Assembly: GCF_012972675.1 (NCBI RefSeq)
Contig: NZ_JABCRE010000002.1
Coordinates: forward strand, 1,167,001 to 1,231,000
Direction of reading: 5' to 3'
Length of the DNA stretch: 64,000 bases
Source: Pontixanthobacter rizhaonensis
GTDB lineage: Bacteria; Pseudomonadota; Alphaproteobacteria; Sphingomonadales; Sphingomonadaceae
The notes beneath the pieces were generated by a model. The model was not told where the DNA came from, ran no database searches, and saw nothing but the letters and a program-made list of their open reading frames with translations. A program made the translations under genes and the position numbers. Of this stretch, positions 21,550 to 46,395 are shown one piece after another. The stretch's first letter is position 1, and each line of letters starts with the position of its first letter.

Positions 21550-22008
21550 GTGCGCGCGCCGCCTGATTTCTTTACCTACCATCCAATCCCTGACCAACCC
21601 GGCTGGTATTCTTGGGATATGAAAGACAATTCCCGGTTCAACACGCAAGTGATGGGCCCGATGATGGTGCGTCAAGAAGGCAATAAATGCCGGTTGCGGA
21701 TGATGCCTGAGCACAGGCATACTAATCTGCAAGATATGATCCACGGTGCCGTTACGCTGTCTCTCATCGATATCTCGTTATTTTCCGCAATGCATGTTTT
21801 GCGCGAGAGTGAGGCAGGCATGGCGGTAACTCTTGAACTTTCGACCCAGTTTATCGGAGCCGGAAAACCGACTGAACCTCTGGACGCAGTTGTTGAGGTG
21901 ATGCGGGAAACTGGCAAGTTGATGTTCATGCGCGGCGAAGTGGCGCAAGGCGATCATCTGGTGGCCGCTTTTTCAGGCTTAGTCCGCAAAGCTACAGCCA
22001 AGAAATGA
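21550..22008 (+). CDS. PaaI-like hotdog-fold thioesterase
   Basis: The 152-residue protein is a single hotdog domain. The central region HTNLQDMIHGAVTLSLIDISLF matches the HG..t..D pattern of PaaI/4HBT acyl-CoA thioesterases, with Asp in LID as a likely catalytic residue. Substrate is unknown. The start is a GTG at 21550, chosen because the PGWYSWDM region conserved in the family lies upstream of the next ATG. It begins 18 bases after sdhB and overlaps zapE by ATGA, so the three genes are co-transcribed. Confidence 0.8.
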   Translation: MRAPPDFFTYHPIPDQPGWYSWDMKDNSRFNTQVMGPMMVRQEGNKCRLRMMPEHRHTNLQDMIHGAVTLSLIDISLFSAMHVLRESEAGMAVTLELSTQFIGAGKPTEPLDAVVEVMRETGKLMFMRGEVAQGDHLVAAFSGLVRKATAKK

Positions 22009-23135
22009 CTGGTTCTCCAGTCTCTCGATATGAAGAGCTTGTCGCAGCTGGTGAGCTGAAGTCTGATCCAGAACAACAGACCGCTGCACGCCGGCTCGCC
22101 CAATTGCGGCATGAACTGGCAACCCAATCTCCAACTGGATTTCTCGGCAGGTTATTTGGGAAAGCCCCCCCTTCCCCCCGCGGTATCTATATGTGGGGCG
22201 GCGTGGGTCGGGGAAAATCCATGCTGATGGACCTATTTCACGAATCCTTGGCCATAGAACAGAAAAGACGCGTCCACTTTCATGCCTTCATGCTAGAGGT
22301 CCATGCACTGTTGCGGAAAGAACGGAAAAAGGAACAAGGCGATCCAATCCCGCCAGTTGCAGCCACGATTGCCCGAAATGTCCGATGTCTCGCCTTCGAT
22401 GAAATGGTGGTCAATAATTCCGCGGATGCGATGATCATGAGCCGTCTGTTCAAGGCTCTAATCGTGGATGAAGGCGTTACCGTGGTGAGCACTTCCAACC
22501 GCGCGCCAAGCGAACTTTATAAAGACGGTCTGAACCGTGAGCATTTCCTGCCTTTCATCGATCTGATTGAAGACAGGTTGGACGTAATGCCGCTCAACGG
22601 GCCAGTCGATTACCGGCTAGAGCGGCTCGCTGGTATTGATAGCTGGCACACCCCGCTGGGCGATGCAGCAACCGCACAAGTTCGTGAGGCGTTTTTTCGG
22701 CTGACGGATTACTCCCCCGACGATGCCGATAACGTACCTTCCGCTGATCTTGATCTGGGCGGCGGACGAAAGCTGCATGTTCCACGCGCGCTTAAAGGCG
22801 TGGCTGTATTCAGCTTTAGTCGTCTTTGCAAAGAGCCGCGCGGAGCGAGTGATTACCTAGCAATTGCAAGGACATATCACTCAGTCATCATAGTTGGAAT
22901 ACCCACGCTTGGCCCTGAGGACCGGAACGAGGCTGCGCGCTTTGTTACTCTGATTGATGCGCTTTACGAATACAGGGTGAAATTGTTCGTCACCGCAGCA
23001 GCAGAACCCGAAACGCTCTATCAAGCAGGCGATGGCAGTTTCGAGTTTGAACGCACAGTCAGCCGCTTGATGGAAATGCAAAGCGACGATTACATGGCGC
23101 TAGGCCATGGTGTTGAAGAAAATCCCAATATCTGA
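22005..23135 (+). CDS. zapE: Cell division protein ZapE (AFG1-like ATPase)
   Basis: ZapE is an ATPase that associates with the FtsZ ring under stress or low oxygen; mitochondrial AFG1 is related. The 376-residue protein has the Walker A GGVGRGKS at residues 65-72, a Walker B-like CLAFDE, and a sensor-like STSNRAPSELYKDGL, all marks of this family. It is co-translated with the hotdog thioesterase (ATGA overlap). Its 3' end is two bases from the convergent rpfF-like gene. Confidence 0.93.
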   Translation: MTGSPVSRYEELVAAGELKSDPEQQTAARRLAQLRHELATQSPTGFLGRLFGKAPPSPRGIYMWGGVGRGKSMLMDLFHESLAIEQKRRVHFHAFMLEVHALLRKERKKEQGDPIPPVAATIARNVRCLAFDEMVVNNSADAMIMSRLFKALIVDEGVTVVSTSNRAPSELYKDGLNREHFLPFIDLIEDRLDVMPLNGPVDYRLERLAGIDSWHTPLGDAATAQVREAFFRLTDYSPDDADNVPSADLDLGGGRKLHVPRALKGVAVFSFSRLCKEPRGASDYLAIARTYHSVIIVGIPTLGPEDRNEAARFVTLIDALYEYRVKLFVTAAAEPETLYQAGDGSFEFERTVSRLMEMQSDDYMALGHGVEENPNI

Positions 23136-26155: not shown

Positions 26156-27730
26156 CTAACGAAGACCAACGATGCGGTCTATCCATTCACCTTCATTGTC
26201 GATGGAGCGACGGAATGCCGCGATGGAGTCAGCCGGGACTTGCCCATCGCGCTCTTCGGCAGAGATGATCAGCAAAGTGGTCGGTTGAGCGTGCAAGAAC
26301 AAACGATCTCGCATATTGGACAGTTTGAGGCCAATCGCACGACCGGTTAGCAAATTGCCCGTGCGGTAGGATGTTTCCGCCCTCCGCTTCACACTGCCAT
26401 GAGCCAGCAGGTAATCGCCCTTGGCACTGCCATCAGTTTGCGCAGGCGCCAGCCACCGCCATGGGGTGTCCGGGATCAAAGCACCTTCGCCGTCTGCGCT
26501 GGCTTCTTTTCCGTCTTCTTGTGCGGAATATAGCGCAATGAACACGTCTACTTCTTGGCCTGCAGCATTGCGGTACCGGCCAAGTAGACGATGGTCAGCC
26601 CCGCTTGCTGTGGGTGCCCAGGGAACGACGGGTGCATAGTCAACTTGCGTCCATCCCTCTATCTGGGGAAGTTCTATGCTGTCTGGCAACTCCGCTTCAA
26701 GCTGTGACGCCACAACATTCCAAACGCCCATAACGACAATCAGTGCGAGCGCGCTCGCAATGGCAGCCTTGGGCGCGATAGTCCGCGCCTGTAGCCACTG
26801 AAACCAGCGATAGTCTTCTATCGTAGGTGTATCATCGCCCAGATCATCGGGATCGCGATCAAAGTACCGCCAAAACACAGCAAGCAATGCCGCCACCACC
26901 ACTGCAAAGAAAACCCAGCCATAGACAACATGGTCAAAACCTTCCGCGAAGGCGATACCCTGCGATTGAGCGATGTAGATCGTACCCCAAGCACGCACTC
27001 CGTTTGCAAGAATGGGCAGCGCAATAGCAGCAGTCATAAATGCGATACGGCGCTTCCAACTGCTGAAGCAGCTATAGGTTACCAGGGTTCCCAATGCGAT
27101 CATCGCGATCAGGAACTTTACGCCAGAACAGGCCTCAGCCACCTCGAACAGACCCGCAGGTGTATCGATAAACACACCATCAATAATCGCTGGAATACCG
27201 CTCCACTCGGTCAAAGCGATCACCAGTTTTGCGGTGATCATCTGTAACGCAGGAACCAATTCATCCCCGAAAGGCACCAGGAACAGCATATAGGCCAGCG
27301 GGAACAGATTTGCTGTGGCTACCCGCGGACCAAGCACCAACACGACCGCCGATTGAAGCGCAACCACGGCACCAAGCTGGCTAACCGTGTTTACTCCGGC
27401 CAGTGAACCGATCAGCCAAATGAATAGCGATCCACCGAGAGGCACTAGCGCTGGCCACCATGCCTGCGGCACCAGTTTCGCAAGGTCGCTCGCCCGGGAA
27501 TAGACAAGCCATCCGACAATGAACGGGACAAACAAGATGTGGTTATAAGTGGATATATTCCACCACTTATCGGCCATCACCCACCAATCACCAGCGGTTA
27601 AAGCCAGTATGGCAACCCAGACCACGCCCAGTTGCAACAAGGCTACGCGCCAGGCATCTGGCACCCCGTCAAGCCACCGAGTAAGCCATTCGCTTGATCG
27701 GAGCTGCCCGGCCGACACGTCAGGCTGCAT
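26156..27730 (-). CDS. xrtA: Exosortase A fused to an EpsI domain
   Basis: Exosortases are membrane transpeptidases that cleave proteins at PEP-CTERM tails and are tied to exopolysaccharide production. From the ATG at 27730 (AGGTGAG upstream) the protein is 524 residues. Roughly nine membrane helices fill residues 30-300. The catalytic triad is Cys201 in EACSGVKF, Arg246 in NGVRAWG and His267 in GFDHVVYGW. After another helix near 335-355 follows a soluble EpsI (DUF3485) domain to the C-terminus, which in some other species is a separate gene. The start overlaps the end of the glycosyltransferase gene by 11 bases. Confidence 0.93.
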   Translation of the reverse strand: MQPDVSAGQLRSSEWLTRWLDGVPDAWRVALLQLGVVWVAILALTAGDWWVMADKWWNISTYNHILFVPFIVGWLVYSRASDLAKLVPQAWWPALVPLGGSLFIWLIGSLAGVNTVSQLGAVVALQSAVVLVLGPRVATANLFPLAYMLFLVPFGDELVPALQMITAKLVIALTEWSGIPAIIDGVFIDTPAGLFEVAEACSGVKFLIAMIALGTLVTYSCFSSWKRRIAFMTAAIALPILANGVRAWGTIYIAQSQGIAFAEGFDHVVYGWVFFAVVVAALLAVFWRYFDRDPDDLGDDTPTIEDYRWFQWLQARTIAPKAAIASALALIVVMGVWNVVASQLEAELPDSIELPQIEGWTQVDYAPVVPWAPTASGADHRLLGRYRNAAGQEVDVFIALYSAQEDGKEASADGEGALIPDTPWRWLAPAQTDGSAKGDYLLAHGSVKRRAETSYRTGNLLTGRAIGLKLSNMRDRLFLHAQPTTLLIISAEERDGQVPADSIAAFRRSIDNEGEWIDRIVGLR

Positions 27731-28955
27731 TGCGCTCACCTGTAGACAGGTCGAAACCACAAATGCTCGCTAACGGGGAGAGCATCGCAGACCAACTTTG
27801 TTCTGTGGTCACATAACGCCGAGCGGCTGCGGCCATTTGCAGTGATTTAGGCCCGTCGGATAGAAGATCCAACGCAGCAGCGATGAGGTCTTGATCATCG
27901 TCACCAATCGCGAAGTGATCGCCATCGACTGCATCAATGCCGGTTGCCGCTTCGCTGGATAGCACAACTGGCCGCGCCATAGCCATGGCCTCCAGAACTT
28001 TGTTCTGGACACCCCGCGCAATCTCGAGCGGCGCCATGACGATATCCGCTCCGGCTAGAAACGGTCGGACATCAGGCACTTCGCCCCAAACGCGAATACC
28101 ATCCTGACCATCCCGCGCAGTCAATTTGCTAACGGGTGCACGGCCAACAAGGTGGAACGTAGCATCCGGATGAACCGCTCGGATGGCTGGAAGGATGCGA
28201 TCCATCACACGGATGGCAGCGCCGATATTGGGTGCGTAATCCATCTGGCCTGTAAACACGATGTTTGGCCCAGTGGATGCAGCAAGGTCCGGCTGTGGTG
28301 CGACTGTTGATGGATTGAAGAAGTCGAAATCAATGCCGTTGCGAATAGCGGCTACCTGATGCGCCGCCGGATCAGATATTCGGGAACGGAATAGCTCCGC
28401 CTCGACATCACTGATCAAAACGGTTGTATCCGCTCTGTCAGATAGTGCCTCTTCAACGCCAGACAGTAGCTTGCCTTCACGGGCATCAATCCAGCGTCTG
28501 GGCCAAGAACCGTCTTTGGCATATGCTTCAAATTTTGCGGAATCCACATCGCACAGATCAACAACAACACGGCCTTTGAATGAAGCCGGGATATACTGAC
28601 CCATCTGGCCGGAAAATACGACAATGGTTTGGATGGTTTGTTGGCGCAATGTGCGTCCAACCCAATCATGAATATCCCGATGTCCGAAGGCCGTCAGGCT
28701 TACCGGGTTGCCCGAAGCCAATGCTTCCAGACCTGCTCGAACCATCGATTTTGATCGGCGCACAAGGCAATGGCTTGATGCCACCGCCGCCAGCTCGTGC
28801 TCATGGGTAAAGTCAGCGTCTGTATCACCAAAACACGCCACGTGGACGGCCGCGATGTCAGCCAGAGACTTTAGCAAATGATGAGACCGGATTTTGTCAC
28901 CACGATCAGGCGGAAATGGCATCCGGTGTGCCAAAAACAGAATGTCACCCATCAT
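27720..28955 (-). CDS. XrtA-associated glycosyltransferase (TIGR03087 type)
   Basis: The 411-residue GT4-like glycosyltransferase starts DILFLAHRMPFPPDRGDKIR, a stretch highly typical of the group linked to PEP-CTERM/XrtA loci. The C-terminal GT-B domain carries IVFTGQMDYAPN, HLVGRAP and a donor-site APLEIARGVQNKVLEAMAM. It would add a sugar to the lipid-linked exopolysaccharide unit at the inner membrane. The start at 28955 overlaps the FemAB-like gene by four bases (ATGATG on its TGA); the second ATG at 28952 is an alternative. Upstream in-frame codons were rejected. Confidence 0.9.
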   Translation of the reverse strand: MMGDILFLAHRMPFPPDRGDKIRSHHLLKSLADIAAVHVACFGDTDADFTHEHELAAVASSHCLVRRSKSMVRAGLEALASGNPVSLTAFGHRDIHDWVGRTLRQQTIQTIVVFSGQMGQYIPASFKGRVVVDLCDVDSAKFEAYAKDGSWPRRWIDAREGKLLSGVEEALSDRADTTVLISDVEAELFRSRISDPAAHQVAAIRNGIDFDFFNPSTVAPQPDLAASTGPNIVFTGQMDYAPNIGAAIRVMDRILPAIRAVHPDATFHLVGRAPVSKLTARDGQDGIRVWGEVPDVRPFLAGADIVMAPLEIARGVQNKVLEAMAMARPVVLSSEAATGIDAVDGDHFAIGDDDQDLIAAALDLLSDGPKSLQMAAAARRYVTTEQSWSAMLSPLASICGFDLSTGERNAA

Positions 28956-30016
28956 GCCAATCCCTTGGCAATCATGGGTCCTATCAAATTGGCAACTGGC
29001 AGAGGGAGCTTCTTCCACAAAGCGATCTTCGCGGAATATGCTTCATTATTCGGATTGATATCGCGGCGCTGGTGCCCTGCGGCGGTCCAGCTTGCATAGG
29101 CAAGCGGTTCTGGCTCGAAACCCCAGTTCTTCTTGTAAGAATACGGCCCACTGCCAGTTTTGGATCGACCAAAGTCAAACCGGTCACAGCCCCGTTTCCG
29201 GGCGTGGCACATAAGCTCGTAATACATCCGCTCATTTGCGCGCAGATGGCGGGCGGCAAAGGTACCCCCACCCCAATATGGATATACTGTATTTTGGTGA
29301 TAGAGGGACAATACGCTCGCCACAGGAATGTTGTTATTCCAGACCGTCAAAATATCCGCCTGTTTACCAAACGTGCAAAGCACCGCATTGAACAGGCTGC
29401 GCGGAAACACCGGCGTACCCAGATTATGCACGCTTTGGGCATATACTGAGTAATGCGCGGCACGGTCGCGCTCTAAAGTTCCGACGGTAACTTTGAGATC
29501 GTTCTTAAGGCTCTTACGTACTTCAGCGCGCTGTTTACGCGGTACGGCGAGCAACTGAGCCTCATCATCATCGGCCAAATCACTGACAAAGCCGCAGTGG
29601 CTATCGTTCCACGAATTCCAATCCGCCGGGGCATGGCCGCCGCGCAGTTCGACTGTCGGGCAAGATGACCGGATCGCGAGTTCCTCAGCCATGCGGCACA
29701 AATTTTCAGCGGTTTCCGGTGTCTCTGCGAGTGGTCCGCCATCCACCCCGAACCCGCTCGATACTAGAGCGCGACCGAAGATCGGCGAATGGGCCTCTGT
29801 CAATGGCAACCAACCCGTCAGCTGGCCACATTTCTCGGCCACGATCCCAGTTGCTTTCTGGCCTGTACCCTTGGCAATGGCTTGTAACCATGCAGGACGG
29901 TGGAAAGGTGTCCCGCGCATCTCTGCGACAAAGCCCTCCAGCCGCGCCAGTTCACCTGGGTCGCGAAGATCAACGAGGGAAACGCTTTCAGTGCTCAAGG
30001 GGAATGGCGCATTCAT
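28952..30016 (-). CDS. XrtA-associated FemAB-like protein (TIGR03019 type)
   Basis: The 354-residue protein has the double-GNAT fold expected of FemAB-type peptidyltransferases. Visible marks are VPRKQRAEVRKSLKNDL in the middle and the C-terminal RFDFGRSKTGSGPYSYKKNWG, the most conserved part of the XrtA-linked subgroup. FemAB relatives move aminoacyl groups from charged tRNA, but the acceptor here is not known; transfer onto the exopolysaccharide or its lipid carrier is inferred. It overlaps both neighbours by four bases. Confidence 0.88.
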   Translation of the reverse strand: MNAPFPLSTESVSLVDLRDPGELARLEGFVAEMRGTPFHRPAWLQAIAKGTGQKATGIVAEKCGQLTGWLPLTEAHSPIFGRALVSSGFGVDGGPLAETPETAENLCRMAEELAIRSSCPTVELRGGHAPADWNSWNDSHCGFVSDLADDDEAQLLAVPRKQRAEVRKSLKNDLKVTVGTLERDRAAHYSVYAQSVHNLGTPVFPRSLFNAVLCTFGKQADILTVWNNNIPVASVLSLYHQNTVYPYWGGGTFAARHLRANERMYYELMCHARKRGCDRFDFGRSKTGSGPYSYKKNWGFEPEPLAYASWTAAGHQRRDINPNNEAYSAKIALWKKLPLPVANLIGPMIAKGLA

Positions 30017-36494: not shown

Positions 36495-37136
36495 TCAGAA
36501 CATGCTTTCCGGGATAATGATCACATCACCCGGTTGGAGGAGAACATTGGCGCGTACATCGCCTTTGCGGAGCAAATCATTGAGCCGCAGCTTGTATTCT
36601 TCTTGGCGTGATGTGCCCTTGTTGAAGCGCACCAACTTTGCCTTATTGCCCGAAGCAAATTCTGACAGACCGCCAACGGCAATCATCGCGTCCAACACAG
36701 TCATATTCGCACGATATGGCAGAGAAGCAGGTTTGCTGGTCGCGCCGATGATGCGGATTTGCTGGCTGATCGCGCCTTTGGATTCGTTGACGATTACGGA
36801 GACCAGCGGCTCTTCAATATACTGGGACAGTTGAAGGCGAATGTCTTGCGCCAGCATCGTCGGTGTTTTTCCGACCGCTGGCATATCCGTAATAAGCGGT
36901 GTTGTGATCCGTCCATCGGGCCGGACCTGAATTTCCTCTGCACCAAGTTCCGGGTTACGCCACACGTGGATCGTGATGGTATCCAGCGCACCAATAATAT
37001 ATTCAGAGCTTGGCCCTTCTTGCATAGCAACAAAGGACGCTGGCGGCAGCTGCGTCCCACCACTGGCACAACCCGCCAGAGTCATTGCAGCCAACGCGCT
37101 GCCTGCGAGCAATTTCGGAAATCGGTTACTAATCAT
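36495..37136 (-). CDS. XrtA-associated polysaccharide export lipoprotein (Wza-like, TIGR03027 type)
   Basis: The 213-residue protein has a lipoprotein signal with LAGC (Cys23). The polysaccharide export domain follows (EYIIGALDTITIHVWRNPEL, VRPDGRITTPLI), then SLBB-type repeats (IRIIGATSKP). It is shorter than E. coli Wza and lacks the C-terminal membrane-spanning helix, as usual for this subgroup; the beta-barrel encoded downstream may supply the pore. It is the first gene of the EPS run, with AAGGA before the ATG and a 203-base gap upstream. Confidence 0.92.
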   Translation of the reverse strand: MISNRFPKLLAGSALAAMTLAGCASGGTQLPPASFVAMQEGPSSEYIIGALDTITIHVWRNPELGAEEIQVRPDGRITTPLITDMPAVGKTPTMLAQDIRLQLSQYIEEPLVSVIVNESKGAISQQIRIIGATSKPASLPYRANMTVLDAMIAVGGLSEFASGNKAKLVRFNKGTSRQEEYKLRLNDLLRKGDVRANVLLQPGDVIIIPESMF

Positions 37137-37339: not shown

Positions 37340-38572
37340 TTAAACCAGAATCTCGGCGGCAGGACCGTGGCCAAGGAAGTTGGCTGGTGATGATGTCGCG
37401 CCATAAGCACCGGCACAAAACACAGCGACCAAATCACCTACATCTGCTCTGGGTAGCTCGGCATTATCTGCCAAACGATCGAGCGGGGTACATAGGCAGC
37501 CCACAATGTTGGCTATTTCTTCGGGCTCTGCATTAAATTTTGTAGCGATCGCAGCGGGATAGTTACGCCGCACGACTGTCCCGAAATTTCCCGATGCGGC
37601 CAATTGATGGTGCAATCCGCCATCTGTGACGAGGTAAATCACCCCGTGACTTTCCTTACGATCAACAATCTCAGCAAGATAAACGCCCGCTTCGCCGACC
37701 AAATGCCGGCCCAGCTCTATGCAAAAATACGTATTGGCCAAGTTGGCAGGCAAATTTGCCATACGCTTTTCCAACGCCGCACCGATGGCGGCAGTATCAA
37801 CCGGTTGATCACCGTGGAAATAGGGAATTCCGAAACCGCCGCCCATATTGAGCTTGGGAAGCGGCAAACCAATTTGTGTAGAGAGCTCATCTGCCAGGTC
37901 GAGGACATTGCCCTGTGCTTCAATCAATGCATCGGCACTCAATGCCTGGCTACCGGTAAAGATGTGCAGCCCGCTCCATTCCGCGCCAGACGCAATGATA
38001 TGCTTCGCCAATGCAGGAACGCGATCTTGGTCTATCCCGAATGGCTTAGCGCCGCCGCCCATTTTCATCCCTGAACCGCGCAGCTCGAAATCCGGGTTTA
38101 CCCGAATAGCTAACCGGGGCGTTACCCCCAGACGATCACCAATTGCCAAAGCCCGTCTGGCTTCATTTTCTGATTCGAGATTAAGGGTGACACCCGCAAT
38201 GATGGCAGCTTCCAATTCCGCATCACGTTTTCCCGGTCCAGCGAAGCTAATACGCACTGGATCAAGCCCGGCGTCTTGGGCCATTTTCAACTCACCGGCA
38301 GAGGCGATATCAAATCCATCGACCAGCCCGGCCATATGCTGCAGCACCGGCGCAAACGGGTTGGCTTTGATAGCGTAATTCAAATGAACATTGCCCGGCA
38401 AAGCCGCCCGTAGATCGGCCACACGTTGGGTCAAGTGACCCTTGGAATAGACAAAGGCAGGTGTTGCACCGGCCTTAGCCACCAGCTCACGCGCTGTCAG
38501 ACCGCCGATGGCCAACTGCCCGTCTTTGGCATTGTATCCAGCGGGGATGGGGCCAAGAGGTTTTGCCTTCAT
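37340..38572 (-). CDS. PLP-dependent decarboxylase, exosortase A system-associated (TIGR03099 type)
   Basis: The 410-residue fold III enzyme belongs to the group of diaminopimelate/ornithine decarboxylases. PLP would bind Lys69 in YAIKANP. Other marks are IFTGSQ, the phosphate loop GGGFGIPY, ELGRH, the catalytic Cys in GCLCTPLD, and the GAYG near the end. The amino-acid substrate is unknown. It overlaps the acyl-CoA ligase gene by four bases (ATGA). True DAP decarboxylase (LysA) is the main alternative, but the shared operon with the ligase favours the exosortase-linked group. Confidence 0.9.
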   Translation of the reverse strand: MKAKPLGPIPAGYNAKDGQLAIGGLTARELVAKAGATPAFVYSKGHLTQRVADLRAALPGNVHLNYAIKANPFAPVLQHMAGLVDGFDIASAGELKMAQDAGLDPVRISFAGPGKRDAELEAAIIAGVTLNLESENEARRALAIGDRLGVTPRLAIRVNPDFELRGSGMKMGGGAKPFGIDQDRVPALAKHIIASGAEWSGLHIFTGSQALSADALIEAQGNVLDLADELSTQIGLPLPKLNMGGGFGIPYFHGDQPVDTAAIGAALEKRMANLPANLANTYFCIELGRHLVGEAGVYLAEIVDRKESHGVIYLVTDGGLHHQLAASGNFGTVVRRNYPAAIATKFNAEPEEIANIVGCLCTPLDRLADNAELPRADVGDLVAVFCAGAYGATSSPANFLGHGPAAEILV

Positions 38573-40131
38573 TGCTTTGCCTCTACCATATTTTTCGTCT
38601 CAACTTCTTGCTGGATCTGTTTGCCGATAGTCGTGCGGTCCAATTTGCCATTCGGATTGGTCGGCATTGTATCCCGCCAGTGGATGGCGTGCGGCTGCAT
38701 GAAATTGGGTAGCTCTTTGGCCAGCGCTTTGGGCAGATGCAATTCGGCCTCATCGCTGCCCGCTGCGGCGCGTACGACCAGATGGATCGCGTGACCCAAT
38801 CGCGGGTCGGGAACGCCCAATGCCACTGCTTCGGCCACCAGCCCGGTAGCAACCGCTGCCTCTTCAATATCTTGCGGGCTAATGCGGTTACCGGCGCTTT
38901 TGATCATCGAATCGCGCCGGCCAACGAAATATAAAAGTCCGTCTGCATCCCGTTTGACGCGGTCCCCAGACCATACCGCCATGCCGCCGTACCGTGACCC
39001 TTCTGGCGCGGCCTTGAATCGTTCTGCGGTACGTTTGGCATCCTGCCAATAACCTTGAGCCACCAGCGGGCCGCAATGGACTAGCTCACCTTCTTCATCC
39101 GGTGCCGTGATCGCGCCCTGATCGTTAATCACCATTATCTCAGCGAATGGTATCGCAGTGCCCATCGAAGTCGGGTGGCTTTCGGCCAATTGCGGCTTGA
39201 GATAGGTCGATCGGAATGCCTCGGTCAGGCCATACATCGGGAAAAGGTCCGCTTCGGGAAAAATATCGCGAAGATTGCCAACCAATTCTTCAGTCAACGC
39301 GCCGCCACTATTCGTCAATCTGCGCAAAGGTTTGACCGATTCCGCAGGCCACTCAAGCTCGGTCAATTGCACCCATAAAGGCGGCACCGCCGCCAACGTG
39401 GTAATACCGTATTTTTGGCAAGCCCGGACGACATCCTTGGCGAACAGATAATCGAGCGGAACAACGCTGCCACCTGCATACCAAGTGCTAAGCAGTTGGT
39501 TTTGCCCGTAATCAAAAGATAGTGGCAAGACCCCCAAAGTCACATCACCCGCTGCCATCCCTAGATAATGAGCCACGCTAACCGCACCAAGCCAGAGATT
39601 GGCATGGCTCAACATAACCCCTTTCGGGCGTCCGGTAGAGCCGCTGGTGTAAAGGATGGCACATAAATCATTCGGATCGTTTGAAGAAATTCCAAGAGGC
39701 GCTTCAATCTCGGCCAGAGAACCGAGTATCAAATCTTCATCAATGCACTCTACGCCGACCGGAATATCCTCCGCATCCAAAGTGGCCAGCCGCGCCTTGG
39801 TCCCCAGTAGCAATGATGCGCCGCTATCCGCCAATATATGCGCAACTTGGCCGTGTTTGAGCAATGGATTGATCGGTACATGGACCAGCCCCGCGCGCGC
39901 AGCAGCAAGCGGCATCAAACACGTCAGTTCATTTTTTGCGGCCCATGTCGCAACCCGGGCACCATTCTGCGGCAGCCGATCTCTTAACCAGCCACTAAGA
40001 CGACTGACACGGTCCTTTAAGTCCTTGTAGCTAAAGGTTCGGTCACGCAAAACCAACGCTGGGCTATCATCATGACCACATTCAGTCAGATGATCGAGCG
40101 GTTTTGGTTCTGGATTTGGTAAGTCGGGCAT
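38569..40131 (-). CDS. Acyl-CoA ligase (AMP-forming), exosortase A system-associated (TIGR03098 type)
   Basis: The 520-residue adenylate-forming enzyme has the P-loop YTSGSTGRPKG at residues 161-171, a YGLTE motif, GDRVKRDADG, the hinge and the C-terminal NPNGKLDR, whose Lys completes adenylation. It activates a carboxylate as acyl-AMP and loads it on CoA or a carrier protein; the ACP encoded 1.1 kb away on the other strand is an obvious candidate acceptor. Its ATG is 28 bases from the divergent GNAT-type gene, so both may share a control region. Confidence 0.91.
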   Translation of the reverse strand: MPDLPNPEPKPLDHLTECGHDDSPALVLRDRTFSYKDLKDRVSRLSGWLRDRLPQNGARVATWAAKNELTCLMPLAAARAGLVHVPINPLLKHGQVAHILADSGASLLLGTKARLATLDAEDIPVGVECIDEDLILGSLAEIEAPLGISSNDPNDLCAILYTSGSTGRPKGVMLSHANLWLGAVSVAHYLGMAAGDVTLGVLPLSFDYGQNQLLSTWYAGGSVVPLDYLFAKDVVRACQKYGITTLAAVPPLWVQLTELEWPAESVKPLRRLTNSGGALTEELVGNLRDIFPEADLFPMYGLTEAFRSTYLKPQLAESHPTSMGTAIPFAEIMVINDQGAITAPDEEGELVHCGPLVAQGYWQDAKRTAERFKAAPEGSRYGGMAVWSGDRVKRDADGLLYFVGRRDSMIKSAGNRISPQDIEEAAVATGLVAEAVALGVPDPRLGHAIHLVVRAAAGSDEAELHLPKALAKELPNFMQPHAIHWRDTMPTNPNGKLDRTTIGKQIQQEVETKNMVEAKQ

Positions 40132-40159
40132 TCAGGCTCCGCAAAAGGAAGTGTAACCA

Positions 40160-41134
40160 TTGGTCAGCGTCAGCTATCACAACACAGTTAACGTCTTGCA
40201 AGGGATGAGTAAAAAACTCTCTCGTCCTGATAGCATTGCCGTGACCCCGTTCGACAAACCCGAATGGCTCGCATTGATTGCCGCCTCTGGCTGTGAACCA
40301 TTCATAGCCGTCGCTGCCAATGTTCAGGAAGCCGCGGCGCTACCGATGACGCGCGAAAACGGGCGGTTGGAACCCCTAGCCAACTGGTACAATTTCATTT
40401 GGCGGACATTGGGCTCTGCTGACCCCGCTATTATGCGTGAGCTGGCACAGGCGCTCAAATCGCAAACACACCGCGTCACTTTGTGGCCTATACCAGACGA
40501 AGATGGTTCGGCTTCTGCGTTAGAGGCGGCCTTTCATGCCGCGGGTTGGTCTGTGCGGAAAACAGCGTGCGATCATAATCACGTCCTCGAAGTAAATGGT
40601 CGCTGTTTTGCGGATTACTGGGCGACACGGTCAGGCAGGATGCGCACCACCTTGAAGCGTAAGGCGAAGAAAGTGGAAGTGGCCATCTACGATCACTTCG
40701 ATCCTGCGGCTTGGTCCGCCTATGAAGATATCTACCGCCAAAGCTGGAAGCCGGAAGAAGGCGACCCCGATATGCTCCGCGCCTTCGCTGAACAGGAAGG
40801 TAGGGCGGGCCGGATCAGGCTTGCAATCGCGACGCATGGAAACAATCCAGTTGCCGCTCAGTTTTGGACCGTCGAAAATGGCACCGCTTACATCCACAAG
40901 CTCGCCCATCTGGAAGAGCACAAGAACCTCTCTGCAGGTACCACATTGACCGCCGCGTTGTTCCAACGCGTAATTGATGATGACGCAGTCAGTCTGGTCG
41001 ATTTTGGCACGGGTAACGATGGCTATAAGCAAGATTGGATGGAACTTGACCGCCCGCGCTATCAGCTTGATTGCCTTGATCCGAAACAACTGAAGGCGTG
41101 GCCTGCGCTGCTAAAACGCACAATTCGCCCTTAA
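40160..41134 (+). CDS. GNAT/FemAB-like acyltransferase
   Basis: The 324-residue protein has a C-terminal GNAT-type domain (about 160-300): SGRMRTTLKRKAKKVE, AAQFWTVENGTAYIHKLAH, GTTLTAALFQR and LVDFGTGNDGYKQDWM. This pattern is shared with BcsL/CelD and FemAB-type transferases. The N-terminal half is a degenerate copy of the same fold. The acyl donor may be the ACP encoded next. The chosen start is a TTG with AGGAAG ten bases upstream; an ATG 15 codons later is possible but lacks a spaced site. It is divergent from the ligase gene. Confidence 0.78.
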   Translation: MVSVSYHNTVNVLQGMSKKLSRPDSIAVTPFDKPEWLALIAASGCEPFIAVAANVQEAAALPMTRENGRLEPLANWYNFIWRTLGSADPAIMRELAQALKSQTHRVTLWPIPDEDGSASALEAAFHAAGWSVRKTACDHNHVLEVNGRCFADYWATRSGRMRTTLKRKAKKVEVAIYDHFDPAAWSAYEDIYRQSWKPEEGDPDMLRAFAEQEGRAGRIRLAIATHGNNPVAAQFWTVENGTAYIHKLAHLEEHKNLSAGTTLTAALFQRVIDDDAVSLVDFGTGNDGYKQDWMELDRPRYQLDCLDPKQLKAWPALLKRTIRP

Positions 41135-41202
41135 ACCGCCGGGTTGCGTCATTTCTGCGGCAAAGCTAAGGGCGGCGCCACAGTTCAGGGGAATACAAAC
41201 AA

Positions 41203-41529
41203 ATGAACGGGAAGCGCGTGACAGAAGCACCTGAAAACGCAGAGCGCAAGAGCGGCCTTGCCCCTTCGCGCCAGGCCATCGATACCCAACTCCGCTCGAT
41301 CTTGTGCGATGTGCTTGGTCTAGATGCTGACGATGTCGAGACGTTTGATGGCGACACAGGCCTTTTCGGGCATTTGCCAGAGCTTGATTCCATGGCCGTG
41401 GCCGGTCTTCTGACTGAAATGGAAGACCGGATGGACATCATTATCGATGATGATGATGTGGACGGTGAGATGCTAGAGACGTTCGGCGGGCTATTGGCCT
41501 TTGCTGAAGCCAAAGCCATTGAAGGCTGA
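41203..41529 (+). CDS. Acyl carrier protein
   Basis: The 108-residue protein has a carrier domain from about residue 26. The phosphopantetheine attachment site is Ser63 in LPELDSMAVAGLL (DSM in place of the usual DSL). The domain is acidic, with an Asp-rich stretch IIIDDDDVDGE after the site. The first 25 residues are polar and charged. A dedicated carrier protein next to a ligase and two hydrolases suggests covalently tethered intermediates. AGGGG lies upstream of the ATG. It starts an operon with the two hydrolases, two bases before the next ATG. Confidence 0.9.
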   Translation: MNGKRVTEAPENAERKSGLAPSRQAIDTQLRSILCDVLGLDADDVETFDGDTGLFGHLPELDSMAVAGLLTEMEDRMDIIIDDDDVDGEMLETFGGLLAFAEAKAIEG

Positions 41530-41531
41530 TC

Positions 41532-42218
41532 ATGCGCAGCTTCACCTACTGGACCGCGCCTTTGCCGGGCGGCGGAACCTCTGAGGAAACTGCGCTTACC
41601 TTCGATCAGGATCGTGAATGTCGCCTGTTGGTGCTGCCAAGCCTGTTCGACGAGGCAAACAAACTTCGCCGCCAAACGGTAGAAGTGATGCACCGGCTGG
41701 ATCTGTCCGGCATTGATAGCATCCTGCCTGACCTGCCCGGCTGCAATGATAGCCCCCAGCCTAGTGGTACGCAAACCTTGGAAGACTGGCGATTTGCAGC
41801 CGAAACAGCAGCACTCCATTTTAAAGCAACCCATCTGCTAACCATCCGCTGCGGCGCATTGCTTGCCCCCGATGATTTGCCAGGTTGGCGATATGCCCCC
41901 GTCAATGGGCGCAGCATCGTGCGATCTATGATCCGCGCGCGCACGATTGCCGCTAAAGAAGCTGGTGCTGACGAGAGCTCCTCAGAGCTGGAAAAAATCG
42001 CCAGGCAGCAAGGCATAGAACTGGCTGGCTGGGGCATTGGCAAAGATCTTTTTGCGTCGCTGTATGATGCTAAAATCCCCGAAAACGACATGTTGATCGA
42101 CATAGAACAAGGTATTGTGGGCGGCCCCGGACTATGGATGCGCGCCGAACCGGATGAAGACCCGGAACAAGCAGATGCTTTGGCAGCCATCATCGCAATT
42201 GGCTTGGCAGATCAATGA
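41532..42218 (+). CDS. Alpha/beta hydrolase-like protein (exosortase A 'hydrolase 2' type), nucleophile absent
   Basis: The 228-residue protein has the start and spacing of an alpha/beta hydrolase (LLVLPSLFDEANKLRRQ, DLPGCNDSP), but the position of the nucleophile elbow reads IRCGALLA with no GxSxG. No obvious acid-His pair is seen at the end. It may therefore be non-catalytic or use Cys107. Similar proteins stand next to 'hydrolase 1' in sphingomonad exosortase A loci, which is the basis for the name. It overlaps hydrolase 1 by four bases (ATGA). Confidence 0.7.
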   Translation: MRSFTYWTAPLPGGGTSEETALTFDQDRECRLLVLPSLFDEANKLRRQTVEVMHRLDLSGIDSILPDLPGCNDSPQPSGTQTLEDWRFAAETAALHFKATHLLTIRCGALLAPDDLPGWRYAPVNGRSIVRSMIRARTIAAKEAGADESSSELEKIARQQGIELAGWGIGKDLFASLYDAKIPENDMLIDIEQGIVGGPGLWMRAEPDEDPEQADALAAIIAIGLADQ

Positions 42219-42991
42219 AACGTCTTAGTCTCACATTCGGATGCCAAGGACATCAGCTCGCTGGAACGCTGGATATGGCACCTGGCACAGTTGGCCTTTT
42301 GATCGTCAGCGGCGGCAATGAAATCCGCTCTGGAACATTCTCCGGACAGTCAAAATTGGCGGCTCGTATTGCCGCCGCAGGCTTTCCCGTTTTTCGATTC
42401 GACAGACGGGGTATAGGTGACAGCGACGGGGAAAATCGCGGCTTCCGCAATAGTCGCAAAGATATTGCAGCGGCCATCGAAGCCTTCAAGGCCCTCGCTC
42501 CTCAGTTGGAGCGCGTGATAGCCTTCGGCAATTGCGACGCAGCTAGTGCGCTTATGTTGTCAGAAGGCGACGATTTGGATGGGCTGATACTGTCCAACCC
42601 TTGGACGATCGAAGACGATTCGGATGACACCCCGCCACCCGCCGCAGTACGTTCACGCTACTTAGAAAAGCTGAAAAATCCCAAAGAGTTGTGGCGATTA
42701 ATTACAGGCGGTGTGAATCTCCGCAAGCTGGCGGCGGGTCTCAAGCAAGCCTCGACCACCCGTGATGAAATTACCGAGCTAGCCATCAATATGCGCGATG
42801 GGATCGCCCACTTTAACGGCCCTGTGCGCTTCTTGCTGGCGAGCACAGATCGAACCGCGCAAGCATTTGAAGCCAACTGGCCGTCTCAGGATGATCGCAT
42901 CTATCGCTGCAATGGCGCAAGCCATGCTTATGTCGAGCCCGAGGCGCGTGAGTGGCTGGAGCAGCAAATTTTGGAAGTGCTCAGAACATAA
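42215..42991 (+). CDS. Alpha/beta hydrolase, exosortase A system-associated (hydrolase 1, TIGR03100 type)
   Basis: The 258-residue protein has an alpha/beta hydrolase fold. GGNEIRSG forms the oxyanion region, and FDRRGIGDSDG lies on strand 4. The nucleophile elbow GNCDA has Cys107 in place of Ser, as in dienelactone hydrolase. A C-terminal His is in NGASHAY. A thioesterase-like release of ACP-bound product would suit the context; this is inference. It ends three bases before the convergent rRNA methyltransferase gene. Confidence 0.86.
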   Translation: MKRLSLTFGCQGHQLAGTLDMAPGTVGLLIVSGGNEIRSGTFSGQSKLAARIAAAGFPVFRFDRRGIGDSDGENRGFRNSRKDIAAAIEAFKALAPQLERVIAFGNCDAASALMLSEGDDLDGLILSNPWTIEDDSDDTPPPAAVRSRYLEKLKNPKELWRLITGGVNLRKLAAGLKQASTTRDEITELAINMRDGIAHFNGPVRFLLASTDRTAQAFEANWPSQDDRIYRCNGASHAYVEPEAREWLEQQILEVLRT

Positions 42992-42993
42992 GC

Positions 42994-44202
42994 CTATTCG
43001 GCCACATTCCGAACAAAAAGACTGGTCAACTCGACATGAGTTGACCAGCGGAATTGCCCAACTGCCCGCAATTTTTCCAAGCGATACCCACCATCAACCA
43101 GTTTCTTCGCGTCCCGCGCCCAACTGGACGGATTACAACTGACATAGACAACACGTTCAACGGTGCTTTGTGCTAGCAGGTCGACCTGATCCCGCGCACC
43201 GGCACGCGGCGGATCCAGCAACACCGCGCTAAACCTGTTCAATTCGTCCAATTGCAACGGGTTACGAAACAGATCACGGTGGATGGAATGCACTGGCTTG
43301 CGAAATATGCCTGCAGCCGATTTACAGGCGAAATGGGCGTCTCTGGCCGCTTCGGCTGCCAACACTTTCGTCTTTCCCGCCAATGCAAAAGCAAAGGTCC
43401 CTAGCCCGGAAAACAAATCTGCAACCGTTGCCGCTTCAGCCAGCCAGGCTCGCGCATCGTTGACCAGTATTTCTTCCCCATCAGAGGTCGCTTGCAAAAA
43501 CGCTCCGCTAGGGAAGGATACAGGGGTTCCCGATAGCGTAATCGTGGCAGGTTCAGGTTCCCACAAAGTCTCCGGTCCATAGCCCTGATCCAGTGTCAGC
43601 CGGGCCAAACCTAGCTCGCGCGCGAAGTCGAGAATACCCTCGGTCTGCTCCAGCCCTTCGATAGGTAAGTTTTTGAGCGAACAATCCACGCCCTGATCGA
43701 CTAAGGTCAGTTCGATATCGACAGCATATTTGCCGCGTCTTCTGGCGAGCAACTGTCTTAACGCAGTGATGGTATCAAACAGCTCAGGGGCCAGAATATG
43801 GCATTCGGTTAAACCGACCACTTTGTGGGATCCGCCCTCTCGAAAACCGATTAAGGGTTTCCCGCCGCTGCTAATGGCATGAAGCGTTGCCCTACGACGG
43901 CTCCGTGGCGGCGAAAGATGGGTTGGGAGCAGTTCACCTACCGCGATGCCCTGCCCTTCAGCAGCATTTGCCACACGCGAAGTGACAAAGTCAGCCAGTG
44001 ACTGCTCATCGGCATTTTGCAATTGGCACCCGCCGCACTTTCCGAAATGGCGACACGGCGCTTCAACATAGCGCGGGCCACGTTGCAGCGTTCCATCATC
44101 CTGCATGATATCGCCCGGGACGGCGCCCGCGACATGGCGGCCATCAGCAGTGATTCCGTCGCCCTTGGCGGCGATACGGAGTATTTCAGAAGCTTTACTC
44201 AT
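42994..44202 (-). CDS. 23S rRNA m5U methyltransferase-type enzyme (RlmD/TrmA family)
   Basis: The 402-residue SAM-dependent enzyme has an iron-sulfur cluster site at Cys50, Cys56, Cys59 (CRHFGKCGGC) with a fourth Cys in TECHIL. The SAM motif is ADLFSGLGTFAF, followed by DPPRAGARDQV and the catalytic YVSCNP. The N-terminal TRAM-like part is shortened to about 45 residues. RlmD and RlmC cannot be separated from sequence alone, nor a tRNA target excluded. It converges on hydrolase 1. Confidence 0.88.
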   Translation of the reverse strand: MSKASEILRIAAKGDGITADGRHVAGAVPGDIMQDDGTLQRGPRYVEAPCRHFGKCGGCQLQNADEQSLADFVTSRVANAAEGQGIAVGELLPTHLSPPRSRRRATLHAISSGGKPLIGFREGGSHKVVGLTECHILAPELFDTITALRQLLARRRGKYAVDIELTLVDQGVDCSLKNLPIEGLEQTEGILDFARELGLARLTLDQGYGPETLWEPEPATITLSGTPVSFPSGAFLQATSDGEEILVNDARAWLAEAATVADLFSGLGTFAFALAGKTKVLAAEAARDAHFACKSAAGIFRKPVHSIHRDLFRNPLQLDELNRFSAVLLDPPRAGARDQVDLLAQSTVERVVYVSCNPSSWARDAKKLVDGGYRLEKLRAVGQFRWSTHVELTSLFVRNVAE

Positions 44203-44252: not shown

Positions 44253-44687
44253 CTATTCGCCTTCATCGGCCTGTGCTGGTGTGTCTTCTGGCGGCGCTTC
44301 TTGCGTTTCGGCAGGCGGAGTGTCGGTCTTTACGGCCGCTGGGAAACGATAACGGTCTGCGCCAATTGTGATGAGCAAAGTTCCATCCTCCAAAGCACGG
44401 CTGACTTGGTCAGCGCCATCGACTTCTACCAGGCCCCTGCCATCATCCAATTGCTGAAAGCGGCGAAAACCCCCGTCGGGATGCCGAATGGTGAGCAGCG
44501 TCTGGCCATCGACCTCTTCACGCTCGACCAGACAATCCGCACCAAACGTGCTGCCATCACCAAGCGCACATTCAATAGCTTCAGAGCCTTCTTCCGCCTG
44601 CGGTTGCTCCGCTGGTGGCTCAGAACACGCCGCCAGGACTAGAGACCCGGCGATCACAGAACCGAGAGTTACATTAGATATCCGCAT
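44253..44687 (-). CDS. Predicted lipoprotein of unknown function
   Basis: The 144-residue protein has a lipoprotein signal with LAAC (Cys21). A small middle domain holds two Cys ([13 protein letters not shown]) and strand-like segments ([26 protein letters not shown]). The last 25 residues are a Pro/Glu/Thr-rich tail. No family is recognised. Its start lies 14 bases inside the 3' end of ilvD, so it is translated from the same message. Confidence 0.7.
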
Positions 44688-46395
44688 AGACGTGCTTTTC
44701 TGCTTTTGCGCCTGGATGGGTCAGCGCGCCCTTGCTGGCCGGACCAACATTTTGGGCATAGCGCCACAATGCACCCGATTGGTAATCATTTTCGCGTGGT
44801 TCCCATTTGGCACGGCGAGCTTCTAAGGTTTGTTCATCGACCTGTAGATCGATTGTGCCAGCAACGGCGTCGATCGCGATGATGTCCCCGTCTTCCACCA
44901 GACCAATAGGGCCGCCTTCAGCCGCTTCTGGACCGACATGGCCAATGCAAAAACCGCGGGTAGCTCCGGAAAACCGTCCATCAGTAATCAACGCCACTTT
45001 TTCGCCCATCCCTTGGCCATATAATGCGGCAGTCGTCGATAGCATCTCTCGCATACCCGGGCCGCCTTTGGGTCCTTCATACCGGATAACCACAACGCTG
45101 CCCTCATGAATTTCTTTGTTACCAACGGCGGCAAAGGCATCTTCCTCGCAATCAAATACTTGCGCTGGACCGGTGAATTGCAGCCGATCCATGCCAGCCA
45201 CTTTCACAATCGCCCCCTCGGGTGCGAGAGAACCCTTCAGACCAACAACACCGCCGGTTGGCGTGATTGGGGCCTTGACGTCATAAATGACCTTCTGATC
45301 AGGGTTCCAGGTAATCTCTTCGATATTCTCGCCCAGAGTTTTACCGGTGACAGTCATCGGTTCGGGGTCGAGAAAACCTCCATCGAGCAGGGTTTTCATC
45401 AGCATGTAAACACCGCCGGCATCATGCATATCTCTCGCAACATACTGACCGCCGGGTTTGAGATCTGCGATGTAAGGCGTTGATTTGAATATCTCTGCCA
45501 CGTCGAACAAATCGAAATCGATACCGCATTCGCTCGCCATTGCAGGCAGATGCAGCGCGGCATTGGTGGAACCGCCAGTTGCGGCGACAACACGCGCGGC
45601 ATTCTCGAACGCGGCTTTGGTACAGATGTCGCGCGGCCGGATATTGTGTTCCAGCAAATACATGATTTGCTTACCCGCTCCGATGGCTACTTCCTCACGC
45701 GACCGATAGGGTGCTGGCGCCATATTACTGTTCGGCAAAGACAGGCCGATCGCCTCGCCCACACAGGCCATGGTATTGGCGGTAAATTGCCCGCCGCAGG
45801 CCCCGTGACCGGGGCAAGCGACCCGTTCCAGTGCTGTCAGATCTTTCAGCGGGCAATTACCAGCCGCGTGCTGCCCCACTGCCTCAAACACATCGACAAC
45901 GGTCACATCTTTATCATGGAACCGGCCCGGCAAGATCGATCCGCCATAGACGAAAATTGATGGAACGTTGAGCCGCACCATCGACATCATCATACCCGGC
46001 AGACTTTTGTCACAGCCAGCAAAACCGATCAGCGCGTCATAGCAATGGCCGCGGACAGAAAGCTCGACCGAATCTGCGATCACTTCCCGGCTGACGAGCG
46101 AGCTTTTCATGCCTTGATGGCCCATCGCGATACCATCTGTGACAGTAATCGTGTTAAACCGCCGCGGGGTACCGCCCGCTGCAATCACACCCTCGCGGCA
46201 GATATTGGCCTGCGCATCCAAGGCGGTGTTACAAGGCGCGCTATCATTTCCGGCAGAAGCAACCGCCACAAATGGCTGATTGATCTCTTCCTCCGTCATA
46301 CCCATCGCGTAATAGTATGAACGGTGCGGTGCGCGTTCTGGGCCAACCGAAACATGGCGGCTAGGCAATTTGGTTTTGTCGAATGTGTGAGTCAC
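44674..46395 (-). CDS. ilvD: Dihydroxy-acid dehydratase
   Basis: IlvD dehydrates 2,3-dihydroxy acids in valine, leucine and isoleucine synthesis using an iron-sulfur cluster. The 573-residue protein has the cluster and active-site segments GCDKSLPGM and [14 protein letters not shown], and the C-terminal [14 protein letters not shown]. The start is a GTG with GGAGGAA at the right distance. The gene stands alone, away from other ilv genes, and shares 14 bases with a downstream lipoprotein gene. Confidence 0.97.

Follow-up and report, generated by a model that had tools for sequence, protein, structure and literature searches.

A BtrK-type decarboxylase, a ligase and a carrier protein beside the exosortase A locus of Pontixanthobacter rizhaonensis: a possible stand-in for PanD among sphingomonads

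We analyzed a stretch of 64,000 nucleotides (the window) from Pontixanthobacter rizhaonensis (contig NZ_JABCRE010000002.1, positions 1,167,001 to 1,231,000), in which six genes at 37340-42991 adjoin a polymer locus with exosortase A (XrtA). All six open reading frames (ORFs) were confirmed at their reported positions, and the two divergent, tightly packed units described in the first-pass annotation are real and rightly placed. On the reverse strand, a pyridoxal phosphate (PLP) decarboxylase of the predicted BtrK-like aminoacyl-ACP type (37340..38572; TIGR03099) overlaps an AMP-forming ligase (38569..40131; TIGR03098) by 4 bp. The forward strand encodes a FemX-fold aminoacyl/acyl transferase (40160..41134; PF13480), a dedicated acyl carrier protein (ACP; 41203..41529), an alpha/beta-hydrolase-like protein with a weak TIGR03101 match and no conserved nucleophile (hydrolase 2; 41532..42218) and an alpha/beta-hydrolase of family TIGR03100 (hydrolase 1; 42215..42991), the last two again overlapping by 4 bp. 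Decarboxylase, ligase and ACP are referred to below as the trio, and the transferase and the two hydrolase-like genes as the XrtA-linked set. NCBIfam does, as had been noted, name TIGR03098-TIGR03101 just 'exosortase A system-associated', with no function given. We lean, with modest confidence, towards the view that decarboxylation of ACP-bound aspartate replaces PanD in these bacteria, and that in XrtA-positive strains the acyl group is also handed over to an acceptor, probably the polymer.

The decarboxylase passes the NCBIfam cut-off of TIGR03099 (576.6 bits, cut-off 478.45). Its nearest solved structures are those of BtrK (7ru7 and 2j66, E about 1e-63), the best LysA reaching 5e-43. With BtrK it has in common the motifs CTPxD, DGG-HH-AAS and SP..FLGH, which we take to be active-site positions and where LysA instead carries CE[ST]GD, DAAMND.RP and YN.R; C361-T362-P363-L364-D365 is invariant in 9/9 sequences. 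In an unrooted maximum-likelihood tree of 32 sequences, from which L015, L170, L173 and L178, translated in a wrong frame, were left out, ten LysA proteins split off at bootstrap 100, and BtrK lies on the side of the window protein though not as its sister, several deeper nodes being weak. Closer to BtrK than to LysA, bearing the CTPxD motif and encoded alongside a ligase and a serine-bearing ACP, the enzyme is, to judge from these sequence comparisons, very probably a BtrK-type decarboxylase that acts on an aminoacyl-ACP thioester, so that decarboxylation would take place on the carrier. A second LysA, that is, another diaminopimelate decarboxylase, was considered and rejected, and we regard its probability as negligible: the protein does score 229 bits for TIGR01048, but this is under the cut-off of 297.9, CE[ST]GD is absent, the LysA sequences are set apart by the fully supported split, and two other proteins of the source genome match the family model at lower scores, one of them presumably the true LysA.

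The ligase passes TIGR03098 (631 bits, cut-off 592.35), the sole NCBIfam cut-off that it passes among its 25 best matches listed. Family scores do not settle its substrate, because its top general match, a long-chain fatty acid ligase subfamily (250.5 bits), and the amino acid adenylation domain TIGR01733 (239.9 bits, cut-off 317.4) both stay below cut-off. Among solved structures, it comes closest to amino acid adenylation domains of peptide synthetases. D207 and R307 occur without exception (74/74) in the ligases of the window and of the named loci (the best 80 among the matches listed, all found through the decarboxylase; 60 of the 80 span at least 21 kb and are called full-length here), and both residues recur in 24/24 more diverse ligases, the window included. 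We equate D207 with GrsA D235, an Asp that characterizes amino-acid adenylating enzymes. The ACP is a weak match above threshold for PF00550 (27.3 bits, cut-off 20.8), and its phosphopantetheine-bearing Ser63, within PELDSMAV, is invariant in 69/69 sequences with that of the window. It seems very improbable that ligase and ACP serve as a pair for loading fatty acyl groups, as AasR/AcpR do in sphingolipid synthesis, with the decarboxylase unrelated to them. Such a pair is reported for Sphingomonas in the accessible part of PMC9386255, and the NCBIfam name of the ligase, an acyl-CoA ligase, would fit it, as would the best general match; against it stand the amino-acid Asp, the solved relatives, the 4-bp overlap of ligase and decarboxylase and the adjacency of these two genes in 60/60 full-length loci. 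Moreover, AcpR usually precedes spt (same source, accessible part), and spt is not in this unit.

The succession of ligase, ACP and PLP decarboxylase follows the logic of BtrJ/BtrI/BtrK in butirosin biosynthesis, in which BtrK, the nearest solved relative with motifs in common, acts on glutamyl-BtrI (PMC7857480, in the portion available). The present genes differ in their TIGR03098 AMP-forming ligase (BtrJ was not compared) and in their polymer or housekeeping neighbors, and their substrate is a predicted one. A second likeness, by description rather than by sequence, is to VinN/VinL/VinO and the FlvN set, for which excerpts of PMC11284099 describe adenylation of 3-methylaspartate or Asp onto a lone ACP: VinN/VinL/VinO act on 3-methylaspartate, VinO decarboxylation leading to a beta-aminoacyl-ACP, and FlvN recognizes Asp for the beta-alanine starter of fluvirucin B2. 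Unlike the trio, these systems feed polyketide synthases. D-alanylation by DltA/DltC likewise joins an amino-acid ligase to a carrier protein for envelope decoration, but the ligase reaches only 166.6 bits for TIGR01734 (cut-off 559.85), and a decarboxylase and a FemX-fold transferase are additional here. We propose that the ligase uses ATP to convert an alpha-amino acid, most likely L-aspartate, to aspartyl-AMP and then to aspartyl-S-ACP on the dedicated ACP, and that the decarboxylase would remove the alpha-carboxylate to leave beta-alanyl-S-ACP. Released beta-alanine might then feed PanC for the synthesis of pantothenate and coenzyme A (CoA), in place of the absent PanD.

The conservation of the locus separates the six genes. 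The named loci are labeled nearly all as Erythrobacter-like genera, Novosphingobium, Sphingorhabdus, Blastomonas or Sphingomonadales. Since both ligase and ACP are present in 60/60 full-length loci (the ACP separate in 58 and fused to the transferase in two, L083 and L122), their arrangement is not a matter of chance. The transferase and the two hydrolase-like genes come and go together, 51 of these 60 loci having all three and 9 having none, and the XrtA-system export gene is found in 44. The nine that have the trio only (L057, L060, L063, L070, L080, L108, L124, L125 and L126) are joined by a shorter tenth, L056 (17.7 kb). In six of the ten (L056, L057, L060, L063, L070 and L080) the trio is bracketed by ispE-FGase-ilvD-yjeF-rlmD on one side and AFG1-(4HBT)-sdhB on the other. 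In the window these same genes bound the XrtA locus in its entirety, save that yjeF was not found there and 4HBT not in L063; L124-L126 match on the AFG1 side alone, and L108 on neither. Beside the trio, L063, L070 and L080 carry a TIGR03015-like ATPase (314.6 bits in L070, cut-off 324.5), and L063 a deacetylase too. These relics mark deletions of the XrtA locus. XrtA over cut-off was found in 0/10 genomes of trio-only loci, in 5/6 genomes whose six-gene set lies away from polymer genes and in 2/2 controls, a check of 18 genomes whose completeness is not stated.

The same separation emerges from 149 genomes of the organism's own family, at least 95% complete and not chosen through the decarboxylase, in which genomes with no match over the TIGR03109 cut-off were counted as XrtA-negative. 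XrtA is present over cut-off in 100 of them, the decarboxylase in 132, and hydrolase 1 is matched in 98 (97 over cut-off). The decarboxylase occurs in 100/100 XrtA-positive and 32/49 XrtA-negative genomes, the latter 32 spanning 22 genera, whereas hydrolase 1 occurs in 97/100 and 1/49, respectively. When 20 of the 32 XrtA-negative loci with a decarboxylase were read, the ligase adjoined it in 20/20 and an ACP was present in 17/20. In a phylum-wide sample of 199 genomes, XrtA and the decarboxylase each exceed their cut-offs in 13 and both do in 11, the ligase passing in 12; the decarboxylase is found without XrtA in G107 and G146, and XrtA without a full-score decarboxylase in G007 and G015. 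The six genes fall into two modules, the trio, which does not depend on XrtA, and the XrtA-linked set.

This outcome bears on the assignment of the whole set to exosortase A in the first-pass annotation, which had named co-occurrence with xrtA as the test. The assignment fails for the trio, whose decarboxylase persists in those 32 XrtA-negative genomes and whose ten trio-only loci all lie in genomes without XrtA over cut-off; it holds for the transferase and both hydrolase-like genes, given the distribution of hydrolase 1 and the joint presence or absence of the three. An account in which all six genes serve exosortase A alone, by modification of the sorted proteins or of their anchor, is therefore improbable. 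The family names, the tracking of XrtA by hydrolase 1 and the presence of the decarboxylase in every XrtA-positive family genome favor it, but it is contradicted by the decarboxylases of XrtA-negative genomes, by trio-only loci that never coincide with XrtA and by the 2/13 XrtA-positive genomes of the phylum sample that lack a full-score decarboxylase. An exosortase-only function was rejected for the trio, since the decarboxylase persists in XrtA-negative genomes and in trio-only loci.

Beta-alanine, which contributes the amine portion of pantothenate, normally comes from PanD, and PanC uses it in its free form. Because aspartate decarboxylated on the ACP would yield beta-alanine, panD was sought in the genomes. 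Within the family sample it occurs in 5/149 genomes, 0/132 with the decarboxylase and 5/17 without (p = 1e-5), and panC in 144/149, with 12/17 among the genomes lacking the decarboxylase. Genomes that either have panD or lack panC are confined to those without the decarboxylase (0/132 vs 10/17, p = 2e-11), also within the XrtA-negative genomes (0/32 vs 10/17, p = 2e-6); all three p values ignore relatedness. panD is missing from, and panC present in, 132/132 genomes with the decarboxylase, which would offer a reason for the retention of the trio where the XrtA locus has been lost. The source genome (G000) has no PanD match (TIGR00223) at E 1e-10. The 17 genomes without the decarboxylase hold only LysA-like matches of 184-220 bits and weaker ones. 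In 3/5 panD genomes (G238, G237 and G254) panD lies about 0.1-1 kb from panC, and both states occur within one genus, g162, where G258 has the decarboxylase without panD and G328 panD without the decarboxylase. On a PanC tree of 80 of the 144 panC genomes (12/12 without the decarboxylase, 32/32 XrtA-negative with it and 36/100 XrtA-positive, the five panC-less genomes being excluded), panD requires at least 4 changes, the decarboxylase at least 7 and XrtA at least 22. In the phylum sample, panD is present in 0/13 genomes with a full-score decarboxylase vs 109/186 without (107/109 over the panD cut-off). The trio would thus resemble PanD in its proposed product and excludes it within the family, but PanD is an unrelated pyruvoyl protein that acts on free aspartate, whereas here the amino acid would be bound to an ACP.

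A published survey of beta-alanine routes is in keeping with these counts. Its Table A2 (PMC7142369, in the part available) has 22 rows for Sphingomonadales and Erythrobacter, with ADC at 0 in 22, PYD3 at 0 in 20, GAD at 0 in 20 and PanC present in 21. Erythrobacter sp. SD-21, which is trio-only locus L070 and has no XrtA over cut-off, is listed there with PanC and PYD1 and with PYD3, PYD2, ADC, GAD, AAM and GabT all at 0; Novosphingobium capsulatum NBRC 12533 (L130) has PYD3, PYD2, ADC and GAD at 0, AAM at 2 and GabT at 1. The main text of a fitness study of S. koreensis (PMC5764234), as far as it was accessible, holds nothing on pantothenate; its assays were run in media supplemented with vitamin mixes, and these may hide such a requirement. 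We give slightly better than even chances to the trio supplying beta-alanine for CoA in this family, a vitamin role that, like the substrate, we infer. If it does, the recorded gap in sphingomonad beta-alanine supply would be closed (PMC7142369, same part). Among other sources that bypass PanD, AmaB of Rhizobium etli yields beta-alanine by uracil degradation, with different chemistry and genes (same source).

Several observations weigh against a role of the trio in beta-alanine supply, or against its independence from the polymer. No release enzyme or thioesterase is encoded with the trio. Arg307 of the ligase would suit an acidic side chain, but its place in the pocket comes from an ungapped reading, and the top general match of the ligase is to the fatty acid subfamily mentioned above. 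The genomes of one family are not independent of each other, the PanC tree is a proxy for the species tree, and 9/13 full-score genomes of the phylum sample belong to the same family, panD being found in 0/4 of the others (p = 0.03). Among the 17 genomes without the decarboxylase, seven (G231, G234, G271, G308, G319, G335 and G337) carry panC, no panD and no diverged decarboxylase copy; these have another source of beta-alanine or are auxotrophs. A need for pantothenate is known from Zymomonas. panD also coexists with 4 of the 12 next-best decarboxylases (G010, G022, G117 and G127), and the exclusion rule is therefore limited to TIGR03099 proper and does not extend to the whole clade. In 3 of the 20 XrtA-negative loci that were read, ligase and decarboxylase occur without a local ACP. 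An exosortase other than XrtA is present in 4/10 genomes of trio-only loci (114-145 bits; the other six have none at E 0.001), and 4/20 XrtA-negative loci keep polymer-system genes by the trio: seven in L135, a nearly full set, three and a weak one in L143, and the amidotransferase in L140 and L151. In some XrtA-negative genomes, a different exosortase probably works with a related polymer system. Finally, beyond the family the trio sits in rhizobial surface-polysaccharide loci, in G107, on S. meliloti pSymB and in Aureimonas AU20, for which decoration by itself would be enough, and S. meliloti is reported to grow without beta-alanine, alongside AmaB activity in vitro (PMC7142369, in the part available). 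In L134, L137 and L150, a ligase-decarboxylase pair with no detectable ACP nearby lies next to a gene for a Der-type GTPase.

The rhizobial loci invite a different explanation, by which the trio makes an omega-aminoacyl-ACP (gamma-aminobutyrate, beta-alanine or similar) solely for the decoration of surface polysaccharides, the panD pattern being a coincidence of shared ancestry. In the stretches read of G107, S. meliloti pSymB (one region) and Aureimonas AU20, glycosyltransferases and a deacetylase accompany the trio and no exosortase was seen; G107 also has a UDP-GlcNAc dehydrogenase-like gene. The XrtA export gene in 44 of the 60 full-length loci and the fusion of transferase and ACP in two loci would also fit decoration. 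However, L056, L057, L060, L063, L070 and L080 have lost the transferase, the hydrolases and all or most polymer genes, and their trio stays in place between ispE-ilvD-rlmD and AFG1-sdhB; the confinement of panD-positive or panC-less genomes to those without the decarboxylase speaks against coincidence as well. We therefore consider decoration as the sole function unlikely, if still a serious contender. Under the beta-alanine supply that we favor, polymer decoration is likely a use of the same acyl-ACP and perhaps its original one. Sinorhizobium accounts for 27 of the 45 plasmid records with the decarboxylase. In three rhizobial loci, L264 (S. meliloti pSymB, CP140955.1; 6498-12184), L032 (6969-12676) and L266 (5530-9230), the ligase-decarboxylase pair is preceded by an uncharacterized protein of about 290 aa, 57-60% identical among them, which is a candidate partner enzyme.

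The transferase at 40160-41134 passes PF13480 and has no NCBIfam match at E 0.001, TIGR03019 included. Its TTG start is backed by a conserved Y6-H7. The predicted structure (pLDDT 92.5) has the tandem GNAT fold of FemX (7e-13, TM 0.67), and its fold relatives, at E values of about 1e-13 to 1e-10, are FemX, MprF-type aminoacyl-phospholipid synthases and the streptothricin peptide synthases Sba18/Sbb17. The FemAB-like transferase of the first-pass annotation thus stands as to its fold, but the family called 'FemAB, XrtA-associated' (TIGR03019) is represented by another gene, at 28952-30016; this XrtA neighborhood holds two Fem/GNAT-type transferases. Fusions with the transferase first and the ACP behind it in a single ORF occur in L083 (7158-8453) and L122 (7119-8498), that is, in 2/65 loci with a transferase and in two genera; transferase and ACP therefore work together, and we are fairly confident that the transferase takes its acyl group from this ACP. 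Identity to FemX, MprF and Sba18/Sbb17 is 8-15%, and, on the basis of the fusions, its donor is probably the ACP and not a tRNA.

Hydrolase 1 passes TIGR03100 (237.2 bits, cut-off 168.45) and has an esterase fold, with the Cys107-Asp212-His237 triad invariant in 59/59 sequences and in 19/19 that include two at 26-29% identity. Hydrolase 2 does not pass TIGR03101 (43.8 bits, cut-off 202.75) and is no clean member. Its nucleophile position is occupied by G, A, S, T or C among 61 sequences, with Arg106 invariant. Because this position varies, the protein is probably not a hydrolase, and may be a pseudoenzyme or a binding partner. The pathway read from these genes in the first-pass annotation is borne out for activation, loading onto the ACP, carrier-bound decarboxylation by a BtrK-type enzyme and transfer, the last through the FemX-like fold and the two fusions. 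Release by the two hydrolases is doubtful: hydrolase 2 lacks a conserved nucleophile, hydrolase 1 has its Cys-Asp-His triad, and both are absent from trio-only loci.

In XrtA-positive strains, the FemX-fold transferase would take the beta-alanyl group off the same ACP and hand it to an amino or hydroxyl group within the polymer system, on the polymer or on its carrier, and the Cys-type hydrolase (42215-42991) could serve as an acyl shuttle for it. Aspartate as the substrate, beta-alanine as the product, its release from the ACP and the polymer as acceptor are steps that we infer. The polymer as acceptor of the acyl group is a tentative assignment that we put at somewhat less than even. A bolder variant combines housekeeping replacement of PanD by beta-alanine made on the ACP across sphingomonads with transfer of beta-alanyl to a glycan or lipid in XrtA strains, its primary amine being the exosortase A acceptor for cleaved PEP-CTERM proteins. 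Exosortase A would use the proposed beta-alanyl amine much as sortase A uses the pentaglycine that Fem enzymes build; we consider this a long shot.

Curated families already cover most of the enzymes, so the genes do not make up a new family. Apparently new are the assignment of BtrK-type logic, the split into trio and XrtA-linked set and the exclusion of panD, none of which was found in the open-licence literature, where there was likewise no paper that ties an exosortase to pantothenate or beta-alanine. The main text of the PEP-CTERM paper (Haft 2006, PMC1569441) makes no mention of a ligase, decarboxylase, FemAB, hydrolase or acyl carrier, and of these gene functions the accessible part of the Aquincola floc paper (PMC9850573) mentions just 'T4 DNA ligase'. 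Exosortase research would gain a candidate chemistry to look for on the polymer, a beta-alanyl amine. A beta-alanine-forming trio would also carry a twist, in that the carrier itself needs phosphopantetheine derived from CoA. We know of no earlier carrier-protein route to a CoA precursor, and the trio, if the proposal is true, would be the first.

The first gene of the adjoining polymer locus encodes the XrtA-system polysaccharide export protein (36495..37136, reverse strand), and XrtA itself is fused to an EpsI domain (26156..27760, reverse strand). The locus further includes an amidotransferase, a glycosyltransferase, the TIGR03019 FemAB, a deacetylase, an ATPase and a chain-length gene, together with an outer-membrane protein (TIGR03016) and a tyrosine autokinase, both below cut-off. 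The outer flanks of the whole region are rlmD, ilvD, an FGase-type gene and ispE on one side and the AFG1-type ATPase gene, the 4HBT thioesterase gene and sdhB on the other. A housekeeping gene for an RlmD-type rRNA methyltransferase (42994..44202, reverse strand) flanks the region and is likewise the neighbor of the trio in loci that have lost the XrtA genes; ilvD (44674..46395, reverse strand) comes next, conserved in the same place. The 4HBT-type thioesterase and AFG1-type ATPase genes (21550..23135, forward strand; 4HBT at 21550-22008) form the far flank of the XrtA locus and sit close to the trio in loci without it. A promoter scan around the unit gave 1 site against 4.6 expected and is uninformative. 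Directly adjoining the XrtA locus, at 23138-24097, is a crotonase akin to the diffusible signal factor synthase RpfF, and it is possible that polymer synthesis is under signal control.

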